Assembly (NCBI GenBank): GCA_019693395.1 | Contig: JAAMXP010004212.1 | Span: 16,184 to 43,632 of the forward strand | Direction: 5' to 3' | Origin: Ettlia oleoabundans | Lineage: Eukaryota; Chlorophyta; Chlorophyceae; Chlamydomonadales | Length of the DNA stretch: 27,449 nucleotides | In this document: positions 10,906 through 27,421 of the stretch, one piece after another | How positions within the stretch are numbered: the first letter of the stretch is position 1 | Layout of the letters: every line of letters begins with the position of its first letter | Position numbers and translations under genes: made by a program | The notes under the pieces: model-generated | The model's input: only the letters and a program-made list of their open reading frames with translations | The model's database searches: none | What the model was told of the DNA's origin: nothing

Positions 10906-12706
10906 TCAGCGCACAGACACTGAAGAGCTGCTGCTGGGGTGCATCATAGGCAGCCGCTGGCTCAGCACGCCCCCCGCAATCACCAGCAGCTTCTGCGCCT
11001 CCATCAGCTGCTGCTGCACGAACAGCTGGTAGAGGGCCGCATTGTGCTGCTGCAGCTGGCTCAGAGCTGCTGCCGAAGCCGCATTGCGGCCCGCTGCATC
11101 AGGGGGAGCCTCAACTGCGCGGTCGCTCACGCCAGCACCTGCACTGCGGCTGTCGGCTGTGTCAGCGGCATCTGTCACTGCACAGGGGCTGCTGCAAGAG
11201 GCCGCAGCAGGGCCGGAAGCTAAAAGGGCTCCAGCACCCAGGCGTCTGACATCGCCTCCTGGGGGGCTGGCAGCGGCAGAAGCTCCGGCCAAAGCCCCAG
11301 CTCCATGTCTAAATGCAGCTGGGACGACGACGCTGCCTCTTTTGCCTCCATCTGCCACTCCGGCTCGAGCAGCAATGCCGCCCACCATGGCTCTTGCTCC
11401 CATTCCTGCTCCCCCGCTGGCAGGCTCGCTATCGATGGCAGCATGTGCAAGGCGGCCGCCACAACAGGTGGCCCAGGCACCACAGGCACTGCTGCAACAA
11501 ACCCGCTCATGCTCGGGGGCAGCGGCTGCCGTGGCGCCCAGAGGGGAGCCAGCACCAACGCCACCTGCTGCCAGCTGCCCGCTTCGCAGCTGCCTATCTT
11601 CCTGCCAATACGGCGGGAGCGGTTCAGGCAACGCTACGCCGTCTGGCAGACCACCACCGCCGCCGCCGCTGCCATCTGTTAGCGGCCAGCACCCGCTGCG
11701 GTCTGGTGGCCCGGCCGAGCCCACGGAAACAGATGGGGAGGGCTCAGGGCCGGCACCAGCCCAGGCTGGAGCGGGGCCAGCTGGTACCTCCAACTCAGCA
11801 CCCAGCAGCAAGTCACCGCCACCAGGGCCCAGCTGCATGCCCGCCAGTGCAGGCAGCAGTTGCACAGCTGCCGGAACCGCCACACCTTGCTGCAGCTGCT
11901 CTGCCGATTGGGCAACCTGCTGCGGCTGCTGAGCCAGCTGGGCCTCCTCTGCCAGCTGCACGTTTGCTGCCGCCACTGCAGCAGCTTCTGCCGCGTTCGG
12001 AGCAGCGGAGGGTGCCCCACTCTTGCGGCGTCGGCTGTTGTGCAGCGCCAGCATGCGGCGGCAGCTCTTCTTCAGTCCGTCAAACTCTGACAGCGGGTGC
12101 GCCACCCCGCAGCGCTGGCAGAATCGCACCTCTGCCCCCTGCACAGCCAGGAGCATAGACAGGCGGCAACAAGGGTGAGCAACTTCTCTGGTGGCAAACA
12201 TTTCGAGGGGCTCGTGCTACAATGCCCTGGCGGCTCCATTTTGCTACTAGTGAGGCCGTCGGGTACAGCAAATATGCTTGGTTTAAGTCGAGGAGTCTGT
12301 TAGCCTGCCAGCGTGCTGCTACACTTCACCAACGCTTGCAAACGCAGGCGCAGTGGAAGGAGGGAGGGCAGCTTGCCTGCTTGAAGAAGCTGTCTGCAGC
12401 CTTGTGGGCCAGGCAGATGTGGTTGCGCAGGTTGTAGCGTGGCAGGCCTGACAGGGCAGCACTGCAGCCATCCGCCTGGCATTCGCCCTTCTTGAACAGG
12501 CGTGGCCTGCGCAACGGGGTGTGGACAAGGGCATGGCTGGTGGGAACTAACAAAGCACACGAGGTGACCCAAGACAGTACCTCGCATTAATATCGTGCAC
12601 TGCTCTATGTTGATAAGCAATGCACGACAATGCACTCAACTAACCATGCAGTCAAATGCATGGCTGTCTGGCTGGCTCACCTCGGACCCCGACTGCCCTT
12701 GCCCAT
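10906..12706 (-). CDS. SBP-box (SQUAMOSA promoter-binding-like) transcription factor
   Basis: A DNA-binding regulator of the plant/green-algal SBP family, expected in the nucleus. Three exons read high to low: 12706-12681, 12506-12377 and 12138-10906, giving 462 residues. The SBP domain spans about residues 17-88. The first zinc site is C-x4-C-x16-C-x2-H, starting CQADGC and ending ICLAH. The second is C-x2-C-x3-H-x11-C, starting CQRCGVAH and ending KKSC. A bipartite nuclear signal follows (KKSCRRMLALHNSRRRK). The remaining 370 or so residues are Ala/Gln/Gly/Pro-rich low complexity, typical of algal SBP proteins. The domain is split by an intron with a GC donor (CAG|GCAAGC), between the two zinc sites. 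The ATG at 12706 leaves only about 16 residues before the domain. An upstream exon could instead join at the acceptor-like CGCGCAG near 12780, so the start is uncertain. Target genes are unknown. Confidence 0.88.
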
Positions 12707-18288: not shown

Positions 18289-21200
18289 TCAGGGCTGGTT
18301 GGAGCAGATGTAGAAGGATGTGGCGGCGGTGGCGTCAATGCCGTTGAACTTGGAGGCGCCGCAGAGGGTGTAAGCTCCCATTGAGGGGAACAGCAGCCAG
18401 TCGCCCACCTGTTACAACGGTGGCATCAGCACGTGTTGGATATAAAAAAGGGGAACCTGAATCAACTCTTGCTGTACCCAGTACTGCAAGACTCAGTCAT
18501 GTCAATGTGGCGGTGCTGACGTGCAAGACTGGCTCATGCTGATAACAGGGCTGCTCACCGCTCTCAGCTGCCCCTTGAGAGTGGATGCGACAGCTCACTG
18601 ATGCCTCCAACAACAAACAAGTGCACGCAATGCATTGCAGCGCAAACAAATTACGCATTGCAGCTAATGGGTGCAACTGCCCACAGCATAGGTAGCAGTG
18701 CGCAACTGACGGGAGCAGGCACCCACCTGCAGCTCAGGCAGCTCTGTGTCCACTAGCAGCGTGTCCAGCCCGTCACAGGTGGGGCCAAACACGGTGGAAG
18801 AGAAGGTCTCGTCGGAAGCGGCAGCGCCGTCGGACAGCAGCGGCCTGCACAAGCAGAGATGCAACAGCAGAGACAAGCAAAGAAGTGTATAGAGTACCTC
18901 AGGAAGGGCTAACAGGCTGGCGAGGAGGACAAGAGGTGCAGGCAAGCCACCTGGCTGGATATCACTGCCACGCAATCCATCCCGTGCGGACCGGCAAAGC
19001 TGCAGCGTGTACCAATGCAGCCTGCTCCAGAGGCCAGCCTGCAGCTTTGCCTGTCAACCTCTCAATCGGCCAATAGCAGCTCCAATTACCTGACAGTGAG
19101 GGTGGCGTGGTCATACAGCACGCTGTTCATGCTGCCATACAGGCCATCTGTGACCCAGTAGTCAAAGCCCACCAGCTCGGCCTCTCCAGACTCCAGCTGG
19201 CCCACAAAGGCGGCCAGACGGCGGCTGGAATGCACGCGCTTGCGCATGGGCAGTGCGCCAGGGGCCCGCTGTGGGGGCACCTCGGTGCCCGCTGCCATGC
19301 CAGCATCCACCCGTACACGACGGCCGTACACCATGCAGCCCATTGTGGCGATGCTTTCGGCAAAGAAACGCCCAGGCTCAGCAATGATGCGCAACGGGGC
19401 TGCAGATAGGGGGCAGGAGGCAACCAGGGGTTCGGGAAACGCCAGGTACAAAAAGATGCAACAACACTGACGCACAACAACAAAGCTGCAGATTGCCTCG
19501 CGTTCACTACATGCCACTCGCCCCTGCAATCCACAGCAGCGGCATCAGCAGCCGTCCTCACCCTCATACTCGGGGAAGTGAGCTGCCAGGGCGCTGTTGA
19601 CAGCCTCAGGCACACCGCCCAGGTCCACACGGCCGTTGGGGCCAAACCGCCCGCCACAGAACCCGCCACCAATGTCCAGGACCTGCCCCAAGGAAGAGAG
19701 AAGTGCAATAAAGTAAGCCATTTGAATTATCAGCACGCAAACACTCGACACACCGCACCAGACCTCAACCGAGCACATGGAAATTGTTGCTGGGTTGCAT
19801 AAATGTTCTTCTGTACCTGCCATGTACAACCTGAAACCCTTAGCCGATTGCTCCCCCCCTGATATTCCATTTCCCCCATCCCCCCACACCTGCATGTCGA
19901 AGCCATGAGCTTTAGCCAGGTCCCAAGCGCGGCGCGCCAGCTCGATCGCGTGACTGAAGGCGGCAGGGTTGGTGGCCCCTGACCCCACATGGAAGGCCAC
20001 ACCCTCCACAACCACACCCAGGGAGGCAGCTGCTGCTAGCAGAGGCTCCCACTCGTGCACCTCAGCGCCATACTTGTTGCCCAGCTGGCAGCGTGCCCCA
20101 GGGTCGTCTGCAGAAATGGGGTGCCGCCAGGACAACAAAAGTGCGGGACATGTTAGAGACCAGAGCGAATGGGAGCAGGTGTGACGTAGAAGATTTGTGG
20201 TTGGGCGTCAGACTGCAATGGCACTGCAATGGCACTCAACGCAAGCAGGCACAACAAGAACCAAGCTATCAGCAGCAGCAACTGCAATGCCCATACCAAG
20301 CACAATGGCCCACATAAGGCACCAGCTACAAAGAAGAACCGAACCTGCACGAATGCGCAAAAGCGCGCGGGCGTCGGGCGCAAAGCGAGCCAGCTTGACA
20401 AGCTCAGCCTCTGTGTCAAAGGTGGTGAGCTCCACGTTGTTGTCTGCCGCGCAGCGCATGTCCCGCGGGCGCTTGCAAGGGTTTGCAAACACGATGCGGT
20501 GGGGCGCCACGCCCAGTGACAGCACAGCCCGCATCTCGGCTTCGCTGGCACAGTCAAAGCCGGCGCCCAGAGCGGCCAGCATAGCTAGCACAGCGCGATC
20601 CGGGTTGCACTTGACTGCGTAGTGGGGGTGCACACGTGGCATGGCCTCCCCCCACGCACGGTACAGGCGTTGGAGTGCACCCAGGTCAACAATGTAGAAG
20701 TTGTCCTGCGGCAGGAGAGGAAGGATCAGCGTTGTGGGAGCCAAGGGAAACCATTGCAAGCCCAGACCACTGCAACCGAGGCCTCACAGCAGCTGAGTGA
20801 TACACAAAGTTCTTGCCATCAATCAGAAACTGCAAATTGTAAGGACAGAAGAGCGAGTGTACACATATGTTTAGCAAAGCTAAGGCAAAGGCAGCCCTCC
20901 AACACGCACCTCCAGGGAGTGGTCGGCAATCAGCTTGCGGGCATACGCATCAATGGCAGCGGCATTGCCCTGCAGGCATTATGCATGTGCTGGTTAGCGA
21001 TCATAGCTTGCGAATGATGGGGACTGGGGACGGTGGCCAGTGTATTAAGCGGCGAACAACAGTCAGTGAGCAGAACCAACGAAGCTCAAATCCACCAGCA
21101 CAATATTACACCGAGAGCCAGGTGCCACCTAGCACTGTCAAAGGGCACCACCTCCAGCAGGCAACACAGGGGAGGCAAGAATTGTTGGTAGGCTGCTGCT

Positions 21201-23645
21201 CGCCTTTGGAAGGTATGCCGCAGCGTGCAGGGCCAACACATCCTCCACACCCATGTCAGCAGGGTCGATCAGCAGGCTGTTGCACAGCCCATTGCGCACC
21301 TGCAGGTGTGGAAAGGAGCATGGCAGGGCAACCCCAGAGTGAAACAGCAAGCAAACACAGCTGCAGTACTGTTGGGGTCTATCATAACCACAAAAACAGC
21401 AGTGCGGAGGGCACTGCTTGGCTGTCGCACAGACTACAGTATCAAACTGAACAATCAGTTCTAAGGACACCACACACGTTGGCCAAGCTGCTTCAAGCCT
21501 CCACCTCCAAAACGCAAGCAATGGGTACAGCTTTGGTTTTCTCACCGATGAGTTGTCAGAGGCATTGTCTGAGCCGGCCAGCAGATCCAGGTCAGCCAGC
21601 ATTGAGCCGGACATAAGGGAGGCTGTGCCCGAGAAGGAGGGGAAGTGCTTCACCACAGCACGTGGGCTGCCGCTGTCGCTGTCACTAGCGGCTCGAGATC
21701 CCTTGCCAGCAGCCAGTGGGGAGCCTGAACCAGTGGCAGACACCCCTCCTGCAGCACCAGGTGCCGCCTCCATGACCAAGTAAGCCACGCAACCCCCGCT
21801 CTTCATCTCTTGGTAGGAGGCGGACATGCAGGCATAGCCCTGGGGGCCAGTAAAGGCGGAGCCCCAAGCGGCAGCGGAGCACGATGTGCCGTTCGCAGCG
21901 CAGTCGGTGGAAAGGGCCACTGAAAGGTTGCGAGGCTGAAACACATCCGCCACCTTGCGCACAAGCTCCGCTGCAGGCGGGAGGTGGAAAGGTGGGGATA
22001 GGTAAGGAGTAGGCTTGGCCAACTGAAATTGAGAAGGGAGCTGACGTGAACAAAAACGAGATGGCCTAGAGGCATTGCATGCTATAAGGTGCTTTACTAT
22101 TCTCTCAAGTTGTGCGACCTGAACCACAAACTGTGTATGTGCAACCGTCTGCCCACACACCTGCGTTTACGGCGTTGGGGCAGTAGCCACAGATTTCAAA
22201 AGAAGCGTAGGAGAAACCATCCTCCGGAGTGATGTGGATGGTGGAGAATGTGGAGCCGTCAACCCCATTCATGGAGTAACCGCAAGGCTCAAAAACGTAG
22301 TCGTCAATGTCTGCAGTACAGGTGCCAGACCATGTGGGTGGAAAGCAGCACAATAATGTTGAGGTGCAGAACCTGGAGGGATGCTGAGCACAAGGGGAAG
22401 GTATGGAGGACAGGCTTGCAATGCACGGCACTCATAACAGCGGCCTGCACACCAAATAGCGGCCTTGCAACGCCTCACCTGCGCCAGGCACAAGGGCCTG
22501 GATGCCCGAGGTGTTGGTGGTATGCTGAGCTGAGATGTAGGAGTCAGAGCGGAAGAACTGGGCTGCCTTTGCTGGGGACAGTCCGGTCATACAGACCTCC
22601 AGAGTGTAAAGCGGCTGCTCAGCAGTGGGGTGAGTTGCGTTGGCATCTGCAGAGTGACAAAACGGGTTGATTGGGTGCTGATGGCATGAGTTCTTAGGAG
22701 AACGAAGAAATGCACGCAGACAGTTCTTCTGATGCAGTCATGCAGCCAACTGTAGATACTGCAGAAGCGAGGTCTGCCGTCTGACAACCATCCTGTCAGC
22801 CACATAGCGGCTGCAGTATTTGGGTGCTACAAAGCAAGCTGCTCACCTGCCACAAAGACATGCCATTGCAGACCGTTGAGTCCATCACCCAGCACATAAG
22901 CCGAGGAGGAGCCCAGGCAGCTGAATGCGGCACGCAGCGCCTCGCACTCCGCCTCAAAGCTGGTGTGGGGCGCGGGCTGCTGCTCCGGGAAGAGGAAAGA
23001 GGCCCGGCTGTACTTCACACGGGCAGGAGCCATGCTGAGGCCGGTTGCCAGCTGGCACATGTAGGGCACACAGCTGAGCAGCTTGGTGGTGCCACAGGTC
23101 TTCAGCACCATTCGGTCTGCACACACATCAAGGCAGGCAGGCACAACCAGCGCAAGCTCAGGAGTGACAGAGGGCGCATAAAAACAAATGGTACCCAGGA
23201 ATCGGCCCCTGGTACCATATGCACATGCAGTTTGGGGTAGAAACAGCTCTTGGTTCAGGCATGGTATACCAGGGTAGCCTTACGTCTAATGCAACCATTG
23301 GGAAAATGAACAGGGCAGACGTTTCACTACACTCTAGGCCTCGCTCTACCTACAGCACCCACGTTGCGCTCCTTGCAGCACCCACAAGAAGGAAAATTGT
23401 CACTCCGCACCTGGATAGACAAAAAGGCTGGACTCTGACAGCACGTAGGCGTCAAAGTGTTGGTTGGAGCGGGAGGAGACGATTTGGCAGGCTGCCAAGT
23501 CGAGCATTGCGTCCAATTGGGCGCGGGTGAGAGCCCTGAGGCCGGGTGCGGGGGTGCTATTGCCTGCTGAAAAGGTGACTGAGATGCGTTTCTCGCTGCC
23601 CTCAAATACGGGGCAGGGGAAGACGTCGGGGACCGCGCCTGTCAT
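18289..23645 (-). CDS. Bifunctional S-adenosylmethionine decarboxylase / ornithine decarboxylase fusion
   Basis: Fourteen exons read high to low: 23645-23411, 23116-22847, 22646-22479, 22310-22161, 21970-21546, 21299-21204, 20969-20910, 20829-20788, 20705-20345, 20107-19890, 19682-19562, 19399-19090, 18844-18727 and 18408-18289. They total 2694 bases in one frame, giving 897 residues. Residues 1-345 are AdoMetDC, a self-cleaving pyruvoyl enzyme that makes the aminopropyl donor. Visible are FEGSEK (Glu15, Glu18), cleavage site LSESS (Glu71/Ser72), KTCGTT (Cys86), GYSMNG (Ser237) and IHITPE (His250). About 100 low-complexity residues follow. Residues 450-897 are PLP-dependent ornithine decarboxylase, making putrescine: YAVKC (Lys514), FHVGSG (His642), DIGGGF (680-682), AEPGR (Glu723), TDGLYGS (Asp800), GPTCDG (Cys842, Asp843) and GAYT (Tyr871). 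Exon 6 and its GC donor (AAG|GCGAGC) are the least certain part, but exon 5 joins exon 7 in frame even without it. A separate ODC starting at Met432 is the main alternative. Confidence 0.85.
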
Positions 23646-23769: not shown

Positions 23770-24102
23770 CTATGATGGCTTCTTCACGCACTGCAGGGCA
23801 GGATCAGGGTTGGGAGTTGGCAGGGCCACTTAGAAGTCACTAATACGACAACGGTATTGCCGGCAAGCACAACCTGCCAGGTGCATCTCCACAGCATATG
23901 GGGTACAAGGCTGATAGCATTCTGCGGTACCTCCAACCGCAGCGTGAACCCCACTCACGTCGCAGTAGCCTGCAGTGAACTTGACAGCGGCCCAGGGGCG
24001 GAGCTCCGCCACAATGGGGGGCAGGGGCGGCTCGGGCGCCTCGTGCTTAGTTGACGTGTTACTACTAACTCGACTACTACTGCCGTTAATGTTGTTGGTC
24101 AT
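23770..24102 (-). CDS. Spliced conserved uORF in the AdoMetDC-ODC leader
   Basis: A small ORF in the 5' leader of the fusion gene. Two exons, 24102-23959 and 23790-23770, join at GAC|GTGAGT and CTGCAG|TGC to encode 54 residues. It begins MTNNINGSSSRVSS, continues with HEAP, ELRPWAAVKFTAGYCD, and after the splice ends CVKKPS and TAG. Land-plant AdoMetDC mRNAs carry a uORF of about 50 codons with a Ser-rich start, then YEAP, VRP, KKF and an end like NCVRKPS. There it stalls ribosomes when spermidine/spermine is high and so represses the enzyme. The algal peptide shares this order, length and C-terminus. Its stop lies 124 bases before the main ATG. The ATG at 24102 is the first in this frame. 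I see no upstream 'tiny' uORF of the plant kind. Function is inferred from plants. Confidence 0.78.
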
Positions 24103-24967: not shown

Positions 24968-27421
24968 TCATGCAAATGATACGGAGGGAGAAGCGGCGGG
25001 TGGCGGCGACCTCACTTCTGCCAGCTTACTCAGCGTGGCCACCACGTCTGCTGGGTCGTTGACGTAAAAAGGCGCCTTGCTAGGCTTCTGCCCCACTGTG
25101 CATGCAAACACCTCAGCTGGCATGTGCGGCGAGAACTGCATGTTCTCAGTCGCTGTGAACATGTCCTCATCTGCAAGTTGGCATGGAGAGCACCGGAGAG
25201 GAAGGGGTAACGCGGGGATAGCTGTTGTGTTGTTGATGCATGATGCATACACGCAGTCAAACAGCTGGCAACAACGAGGTTAGCCAGGTGGACCAGCCCG
25301 CCCGGCTGGCTGGCCAGGCTGTCGGCTGCAGGTTGCAAGCAGGCACAAACTCCCATGAATCAGCTTATCACAATCATGATCAGAGAGCGCACCAGAGCGG
25401 TCGTTGCCGATGCAGAGCACAAAGTCTGGTGACTCGCCGCCCTGCGCTGCATCATGCAAGATTCTTTCCACCATCTTGCCCTTGGACACCCCTTGCGGCT
25501 TCACTTCCACAATCGTCTGCCCCGGCACCACCTGCGGGAGAGGGAAGGAGAGGAAGCAGAGATCCGCCAGGTTGGTTGGTGACCCTGTCATCACCGTTCA
25601 CATGCCGGCCTGCTGCAAAGCAAAAACTCTTCGGAGCACTCAACTCTGCACCTTGTAACCGGATGCCCCACGTCTACTGCAGCATTCAAACTGCTCAATC
25701 AAAGAACAGCACTGCAAACAAATGCAGGTTCATTTAGTATGCATCCACCCGTCTCGATCCACTTGCCTCTATGGGCTCATTCGAGAGCACGCCCTCCAGG
25801 TGGTCCAGCAACTCCTTGGCCTGCGGTACAGCGATACGCAATAACGGTACAGCAAGCTTCAAATGCAAGGGCAGTGTTGCACACACTCACGGCCTACCGG
25901 GATGGAGATCAGTACAGTAAGGTTCAGATGCACCGTTAGGATCCGCAGGGTTGCGTGCTGCATTCACTCTACCACAAGCCTTTTGCCCTGGGCTGAGTTG
26001 TAGGCTGCTGATGGCTGCCAGCAGGGGCAGCCTCATGCTGTTGCATTCCAGCTAGCACTCACTGCTAGCCAGCAGAGTACGCTTTGCACCGGAATACAAC
26101 ATGCGGCATAGATGAGGAATAACACAGAAGCACCAGCGCCAAACCAGGCTGGCTGTGTCACCCACCTGCCAGGAGCCAAAGTCTGGGTCTGCGTCACGGT
26201 AGTGCCACACCAGCGCGCTTTCCTTGGCCTCAATGAAGGAACCGTCGGTAGACTCGGTGTACAGCTGCGGTTCAGGCGTGCGTCAGCGGGCATTGCAGTT
26301 GATGTTGGGAGGGGGATTGAAGGAGGGGGTAATTAACAACAAGGTGGCTTTTGGTGATTTGGGCCAGCTGTTTGTGGAATGTGAAAGTAAAGGTAACTAC
26401 CGGTGCCTTACCATGCCAACATGCAGAGCGCCCAGTAAGCAGCAGCAGAACACTGTCCCCCTGTCTGCAGAAAATGTGCTGCTTGACATCATTTGATCAT
26501 GGGCACACCACCCTGCCAATGGCTTGCCTGCAGAATTGGGTGCACAATGTCCTTCCACCCAAACCGCGCCTCAGGGTCTTGCACCAGCCACTCGCTGCTC
26601 GCGTTGGGCCGCCAGTAGAAGCCATGCTCCGCAGCCAGCCCTAGTTTCTCCTGTGGCAAACATGATGATGGGCAGGCGGATTGGCCAACCCACACTGTAA
26701 CTGCATCCATACCACGCTTCTGCCGCAGCAGGCCGGGCAAAAGGACTGGATGCGAAGATGAATGAGGCCAGGCCACAGCGGGTGAGAGCAGTGGCAGTTG
26801 CGGGAGCTGAGGTATCTGACCGGCGAGGCAGGCACTGGAGTGCATTAAGCAAAAGCAGGCAGCTTTCAAACAGGCAACTGTTTGTTGCTCCTCATATCTG
26901 TGCCACCCTCACCACTGAACTAAACCAGTCTGCCAGCTCTGCGCGTGCCCGCCCGGATATGATGTACACGACGTTGCGAGGGTCGGAGGTCAGCGCCGCC
27001 AGCACGCTGCAACGACAAAGCGAGCAAGCAGACGGCAGCAGGGGTGAGCTGAAGAGCTTGTCGCCCACGAATGTGAGTGAATAGGCAGCGCCCACGAATA
27101 TGAGTGAATAAGCAGCTGAGCGACGGCAGGGAGGCACGTGCTGCGTGCAGGATGCACTGCCACGCCGGGGAGTCGACTTGTACAGCCAGCCAGTTGGCCA
27201 GTTCCTCATCGTGCTGCAATAACTTGAGCACCTACCGCGTGAGCTTCCCAACCCACCCCAGGACCAACCCCGCCCAAATGTGCACGGCGGAGGTGTATGC
27301 GCACATCCATGCTGCCATTCCCTCCACTCACTTGAGCACCTCCTGGCTGGGCTTGCTCGTGATTGTGGACTGCGTCACCAGCGTGCCGTCATGGTCCAGC
27401 AGGAACACACGCTTGCCGGCG
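24968..27421 (-). CDS. Trehalose-6-phosphate synthase/phosphatase, C-terminal TPP domain (partial)
   Basis: The 3' half of a plant class II TPS/TPP gene; the synthase domain lies beyond the window. Seven exons read high to low: 27421-27332, 27006-26913, 26650-26528, 26264-26166, 25820-25767, 25531-25393 and 25170-24968, with an upstream acceptor at 27427-27422. They encode about 266 residues of the HAD-type phosphatase domain. Visible in order are FLLDHDGTL (motif I, DxDxT), DPRNVVYIISGR with the motif II Ser, LGLAAEHGF, YTESTDGSFIEAKESALVWHY, AKELLDHLEGVL, VEVKPQGVSKG (motif III Lys), and GNDRSDEDMF (motif IV). The usual motif IV is GDDRSDEDMF, so the first Asp is Asn here. Two introns use GC donors, CAG|GCAAGC at 26527 and GAG|GCAAGT at 25766. 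The tail after SKLAEV is short and Pro/Ser-rich. Class II proteins may signal rather than make trehalose; activity cannot be judged from this half. Confidence 0.9.
27062..27115. repeat. Tandem duplication of 27 bases in a TPS/TPP intron
   Basis: Two adjacent 27-base units, 27062-27088 and 27089-27115, both beginning CGCCCACGAAT and differing at two positions. They lie inside the first complete intron of the trehalose gene. The near-identity suggests a recent local duplication. Confidence 0.85.

Follow-up and report, generated by a model that had tools for sequence, protein, structure and literature searches.

A fused AdoMetDC-ODC gene with a putative polyamine-sensing leader in an assembly of the green alga Ettlia oleoabundans

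The DNA analyzed here (the window) is a stretch of 27,449 nucleotides from Ettlia oleoabundans (contig JAAMXP010004212.1), part of contig C1044 in a 32.9-Mb assembly, and its introns mark it as eukaryotic. Its minus strand carries a gene that reads as one open spliced frame from an ATG at position 23645 to a TGA at 18289. This gene encodes a complete S-adenosylmethionine decarboxylase (AdoMetDC) followed, after a linker, by a complete ornithine decarboxylase (ODC), as an initial annotation made from the DNA letters had claimed. The product has 883 residues (93.0 kDa) and is encoded by 13 coding exons. The model was assembled by hand from splice sites and then corrected against aligned relatives (n = 11); residue numbers given below refer to this 883-residue version. 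A 24-base piece (20829..20806, minus strand; FLIDGKNF) was rejected as an exon, since it is absent from all 11 aligned relatives. Exon 7 is therefore spliced straight to position 20705 with its phase unchanged, and the multi-exon frame of the initial annotation stands with 13 exons rather than fourteen. Eleven of the 12 introns are of the GT-AG type; intron 6 is GC-AG, and its junction is backed by the protein sequences of relatives that run across it.

Three Pfam families were matched along the chain in the order SAM_decarbox (344 bits), Orn_Arg_deC_N (234 bits) and Orn_DAP_Arg_deC (59 bits). The residues that mark a eukaryotic AdoMetDC (PF01536) were all found. Exon 1 (23411..23645) encodes the N-terminus and the self-cleavage site Glu71-Ser72, exon 2 (22847..23116) the catalytic Cys86, exon 3 (22479..22646) a further part of the enzyme, and exon 4 (22161..22310) Ser237 and His250, while Glu15 and Glu18 are also present. 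Exon 5 (21546..21970) completes AdoMetDC and contributes most of a low-complexity linker. Four positions of the human putrescine site (L13, F111, D174 and F285) differ in potato. At three of them the residue is of the plant kind (Arg20, Lys113 and Leu181), and the fourth, Ser295, is unlike both the human and the plant one. The AdoMetDC dimerization suggested earlier suits the human enzyme better than the plant type.

The linker continues in exon 6 (21204..21299), which is followed by the GC-AG intron, and the ODC part starts in exon 7 (20910..20969). Exon 8 (20345..20705) encodes Lys500, the lysine that binds pyridoxal phosphate, exons 9 (19890..20107) and 10 (19562..19682; LDIGGGF) encode the barrel, and exon 11 (19090..19399) carries IAEPGR together with Asp786, the counterpart of human Asp332, a substrate-specificity position. 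Exon 12 (18727..18844) encodes the C-terminal sheet domain with the active-site pair Cys828/Asp829, whose conservation had been recognized under the numbers 842/843, and exon 13 (18289..18408) the C-terminus and the TGA stop. Equivalents of the Lys, His, Glu-Pro-Gly-Arg, Asp332 and Cys360/Asp361 residues of an ODC of the alanine-racemase fold are all present. The fold of the ODC half was examined in the predicted structure of homologue P0001 through its Foldseek matches, a comparison that does not exclude families outside that listing; the linker of this homologue has a pLDDT below 50.

The features that tie the two halves together had been correctly described. There is no large gap between them, as only 234 bases separate exon 6 from exon 7, and a TAA in the ODC frame lies immediately upstream of the exon 7 acceptor. 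The ODC domain does not open with an in-frame ATG; the closest in-frame Met codons are those of Met432, within the linker, and Met490, within the domain itself. Both decarboxylase activities are predicted to reside in one expressed protein.

A search with the whole protein was evaluated for the best 120 of 180 matches, and searches with the ODC and AdoMetDC halves for the best 120 of 5319 and of 2934, respectively. The initial annotation had proposed looking for proteins with both Pfam domains, and all 120 matches listed for the whole protein have them. The closest of these are from Micractinium sp. CCAP 211/92 (83% identity over the full length) and M. conductrix (80%). Since the Micractinium fusions (886 residues) match from end to end, junctions included, the fusion is more than a chance arrangement. 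Micractinium, Nannochloris and further relatives have one chain across the exon 6/7 junction. Other fused proteins with named sources come from Nannochloris, Myrmecia, Elliptochloris, Trebouxia, Auxenochlorella, Coccomyxa, Apatococcus, Prototheca, Bryopsis, Tetraselmis, Cymbomonas, Klebsormidium, Closterium, Adiantum and Ceratopteris. To these we add Chlorokybus, Mesotaenium, Asterochloris and Botryococcus, which is how we read certain JGI codes, and Nephroselmis, our reading of an incomplete name. The ODC search contributed a fused protein from Riccia, a liverwort, and a second gene from Ceratopteris. As a predicted protein, the fusion is spread over trebouxiophytes, Bryopsis, Tetraselmis, prasinophytes, streptophyte algae, a liverwort and ferns. 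The names or sources of 17 of the 120 listed proteins, Tetraselmis and Nephroselmis among them, point to transcript assemblies, which places the fused frame in assembled mRNA from organisms other than this alga.

Among the 333 proteins collected plus that of the window, custom profiles recognized both domains in 140, and AdoMetDC comes first in every one of them. The spacing between the matched spans has a median of 91.5 residues in 118 complete fusions, with outliers from -248 to 406. Four Trebouxia and Cymbomonas fusions (P0032, P0036, P0063 and P0066) are labelled “Mitochondrial 2-oxoadipate and 2-oxoglutarate transporter”, probably through a mix-up of two proteins abbreviated ODC. Nine viral contigs (L007-L015) also encode ODC-like proteins, which share 27-34% identity with the ODC half. 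No viral carrier of the fusion was found among these nine, which matched ODC residues only; both search patterns were taken solely from the ODC half, so a viral fusion with an unmatched ODC would escape them.

Upstream of the fusion lies a spliced open reading frame (uORF, 24102-23770, minus strand) that was absent from the initial annotation. Its first exon (23959..24102) begins with the ATG at 24102 and ends at a GT donor at 23958. A putative intron of 168 bases (23791..23958, GT...CTGCAG) separates it from the second exon (23770..23790), which encodes CVKKPS and a TAG stop. The 54-residue peptide resembles PF08132, the leader peptide of plant AdoMetDC, along profile positions 5-51 of 51, with a score of 24.8 bits (cut-off 25; E 2e-5 over 24,736 families), and the match vanishes without the second exon. 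A C.[RK]KPS tail, the pattern of plant leaders, arose by any splicing in none of 1000 dinucleotide shuffles and none of 138 stretches elsewhere in the window; for the looser [RK]KPS the counts were 1/1000 and 0/138. Given the putative splicing and transcript start, no further AUG follows the leader stop before the main start is reached. PF08132 and the fusion occur together in gene models from Chlorokybus (P0056 and P0109) and Closterium (P0096), most likely because gene prediction merged the leader frame with the main one. PMC2075485 places the AdoMetDC leader family in Ulva and Chlamydomonas as well, and PMC3426882 describes regulation of plant AdoMetDC translation by polyamines. A single polyamine-sensing leader most likely gates translation of both decarboxylases here.

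The history of the fusion was addressed with separate trees of the two halves. Incomplete halves and those with much longer matched spans were removed, and the remainder was dereplicated at 72% identity, giving quick trees of 128 AdoMetDC and 107 ODC rows, human included. Careful trees were built from 51 and 43 of these, respectively, picked mainly for having names; the Asterochloris AdoMetDC fragment P0269 was omitted from the 51-row tree. Similarity to this gene decided which rows entered, the human protein is the sole outgroup, and seed-plant ODCs are not in the lists. Among the matches listed, separate AdoMetDCs come from Chlorophyceae, seed plants, a moss, Selaginella, Pyramimonas and a pedinophyte, and separate ODCs from Chlorophyceae and Sphagnum. 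A second, unfused ODC type occurs in Myrmecia, Chlorella ohadii, Asterochloris and Botryococcus, nested among the fused ones; Myrmecia bisecta has a fused protein plus an unfused ODC (P0028 and P0130).

In the 51-row AdoMetDC tree fused forms stand on both the chlorophyte and the streptophyte side, with single ones nested among them. A clade of all fused rows was rejected (p-AU 2.4e-99), as was the joining of the Chlorophyceae and seed-plant singles (p-AU 4.8e-6). The 43-row ODC tree, in which Chlorokybus falls outside the other streptophytes, likewise rejected a single fused clade (p-AU 4.8e-4). When only one direction of change was allowed, 6 losses of the fusion stood against 13-15 gains for AdoMetDC, and 3 losses against 10 gains for ODC. 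With free changes, the AdoMetDC tree required 6 for a fused root as opposed to 8 or 9 for a single one; for ODC the margin is thin, 3 versus 4. The full quick trees need more changes, 8 for AdoMetDC and 16 for ODC, in part since pieces from metagenomes and incomplete gene models are scored as single forms. The human sequence attaches beside two long green branches in the 51-row tree, which makes the AdoMetDC root unsafe. Both trees favour, and do not prove, an ancestral green fusion that was later split.

Taken as a whole, the locus is in our judgement best explained, with high probability, as a gene for a bifunctional AdoMetDC-ODC polypeptide whose leader lowers both activities. The chain would cleave itself at Glu71-Ser72 into a 7.5-kDa beta piece and an alpha-AdoMetDC-ODC chain of 85.5 kDa, a prediction that replaces the roughly 90 kDa given earlier. 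The ODC domains would dimerize, carrying Cys828 across the interface, and the AdoMetDC heads would sit on flexible linkers as plant-type units independent of putrescine. One chain would thereby supply putrescine and decarboxylated AdoMet, both used by spermidine synthase. At high polyamine levels ribosomes would stall on the uORF and initiate less often at 23645, so that both decarboxylases would fall together. A search for antizyme gave no match in this genome, and the control genomes were silent too; to our knowledge no antizyme is known in this lineage.

Several observations weigh against this explanation. For this alga, we infer transcription, activity and leader function from sequence. 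The position of human ODC Tyr323 is a Trp here, as it is in 93 of 118 fused proteins. Exons similar to those for arginine decarboxylase, agmatine deiminase and spermidine synthase occur in the same genome (G000, contigs C868, C16 and C15), the arginine decarboxylase matches being below the family cut-off exon by exon. They suggest a second putrescine route through arginine decarboxylase and agmatine deiminase, and the fusion may therefore not be the only putrescine source. A separate lysA locus was also not found by the same kind of genome search, so genome copy counts are lower bounds.

Met432, in frame within the linker, could start a separate ODC, and intron 5 has no in-frame stop (open stretch 21138-22166), so AdoMetDC could instead terminate at the TGA at 21138. 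The locus might then consist of two adjacent, separately expressed genes, with the apparent fusion created by in-frame splicing of the stretch between them. We regard this as very improbable, in view of the short distance from exon 6 to exon 7, the closed ODC frame upstream of exon 7, the unbroken chain of Micractinium, Nannochloris and other relatives over the same junction and the transcript assemblies that hold both domains in one frame. Doubts about the leader are of another kind. Its score is 0.2 bits short of the Pfam cut-off, and the 165 bases upstream of it contain three ATGs, should the transcript extend there. A home-made profile of four sequences, which lacks the conserved tail and did not separate the actual leader from controls, gave a weak score that was equalled or beaten in 2/200 shuffles and 2/138 stretches. 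In the dual arrangement of plants, a tiny AUG uORF overlaps the small uORF by one base; here a TAATG is present, but no ATG that opens a tiny frame was found. The uORF could be a chance resemblance, and ODC, although part of an old fusion, could lie outside leader-peptide control. This seems improbable to us, as the match spans 47 of 51 profile positions and the tail is hardly ever reproduced by shuffling. Moreover, since 320 candidate peptides are possible in the leader, about 0.006 chance matches of that strength are expected over all families.

The alternative history, in which separate genes are ancestral and the green fusion arose from them many times, fits the interspersed fused and separate forms, the many changes in the quick trees and the narrow ODC root margin, and the single non-green row that roots both trees leaves it some room. 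It is nevertheless unlikely, given the far larger number of one-way gains than losses and the single domain order in 140 of 140 two-domain proteins.

The domain order of the predicted bifunctional polypeptide is that of the Plasmodium enzyme, in which AdoMetDC also precedes ODC with a linker between them; the parasite enzyme differs in its large insertions. A Micromonas AdoMetDC-ODC fusion was reportedly described by Green et al. (2011, Mol Microbiol 81:1109). In Table 2 of a 2018 review (PMC6356823), the Micromonas pusilla protein XP_003057072.1 is entered under both ODC and SAMDC. This type of fusion is hence already known in green algae, contrary to the novelty assumed in the initial annotation; what is added here is its breadth, likely ancestry and leader. 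The Micromonas protein resembles ours as a green algal chain listed under both enzyme names, whereas the present gene is Micractinium-like (trebouxiophyte), with 13 coding exons and a PF08132-like leader. The same table gives SAMDC as absent from Chlorella variabilis, which might be explained by a fused or broken gene model. Plant AdoMetDC genes with the conserved-peptide uORF (homology group 3 in PMC2075485) apparently have the same leader family before AdoMetDC, but in the present gene the main frame also holds ODC and the tiny AUG uORF was not found. The bacterial AdoMetDC-aminopropyltransferase fusions, as presented in PMC12803844, likewise join polyamine enzymes in one chain, but with another partner and a prokaryotic AdoMetDC class. 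The accessible parts of PMC10407285, PMC12803844, PMC9992855 and PMC3476827 do not mention a green AdoMetDC-ODC fusion. No statement of a fusion across the green lineage was found in the titles and first lines of abstracts of openly licensed PMC papers, which does not imply its absence from print.

Elsewhere on the minus strand of the window, a 436-residue open stretch (10909-12216) contains an SBP DNA-binding domain (PF03110, 59.7 bits), and positions 26895-27374 may hold part of a trehalose-phosphatase gene (PF02358, 25.4 bits, cut-off 27).

Research on plant polyamines regards ODC and AdoMetDC as enzymes under separate regulation. A genome survey designed to find separate genes can misinterpret a fused one; the SAMDC given as “absent” from Chlorella variabilis (PMC6356823) may be such a case. 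Since fusions extend from many green algae to a liverwort and ferns, flowering plants may owe their separate enzymes to an ancient joined gene. We lean slightly towards an ancestor of all green plants that had one fused gene for both enzymes under a polyamine-sensing leader; the single genes of Chlamydomonas and seed plants would then be products of splits, and leader control would originally have governed putrescine synthesis too. If the fusion is ancestral in green plants, seed plants and Chlorophyceae acquired separate enzymes secondarily, and the supply of both putrescine and the aminopropyl donor was once under the control of a single leader peptide. A leader over the fusion would give ODC a feedback control in a lineage for which we know of no antizyme.

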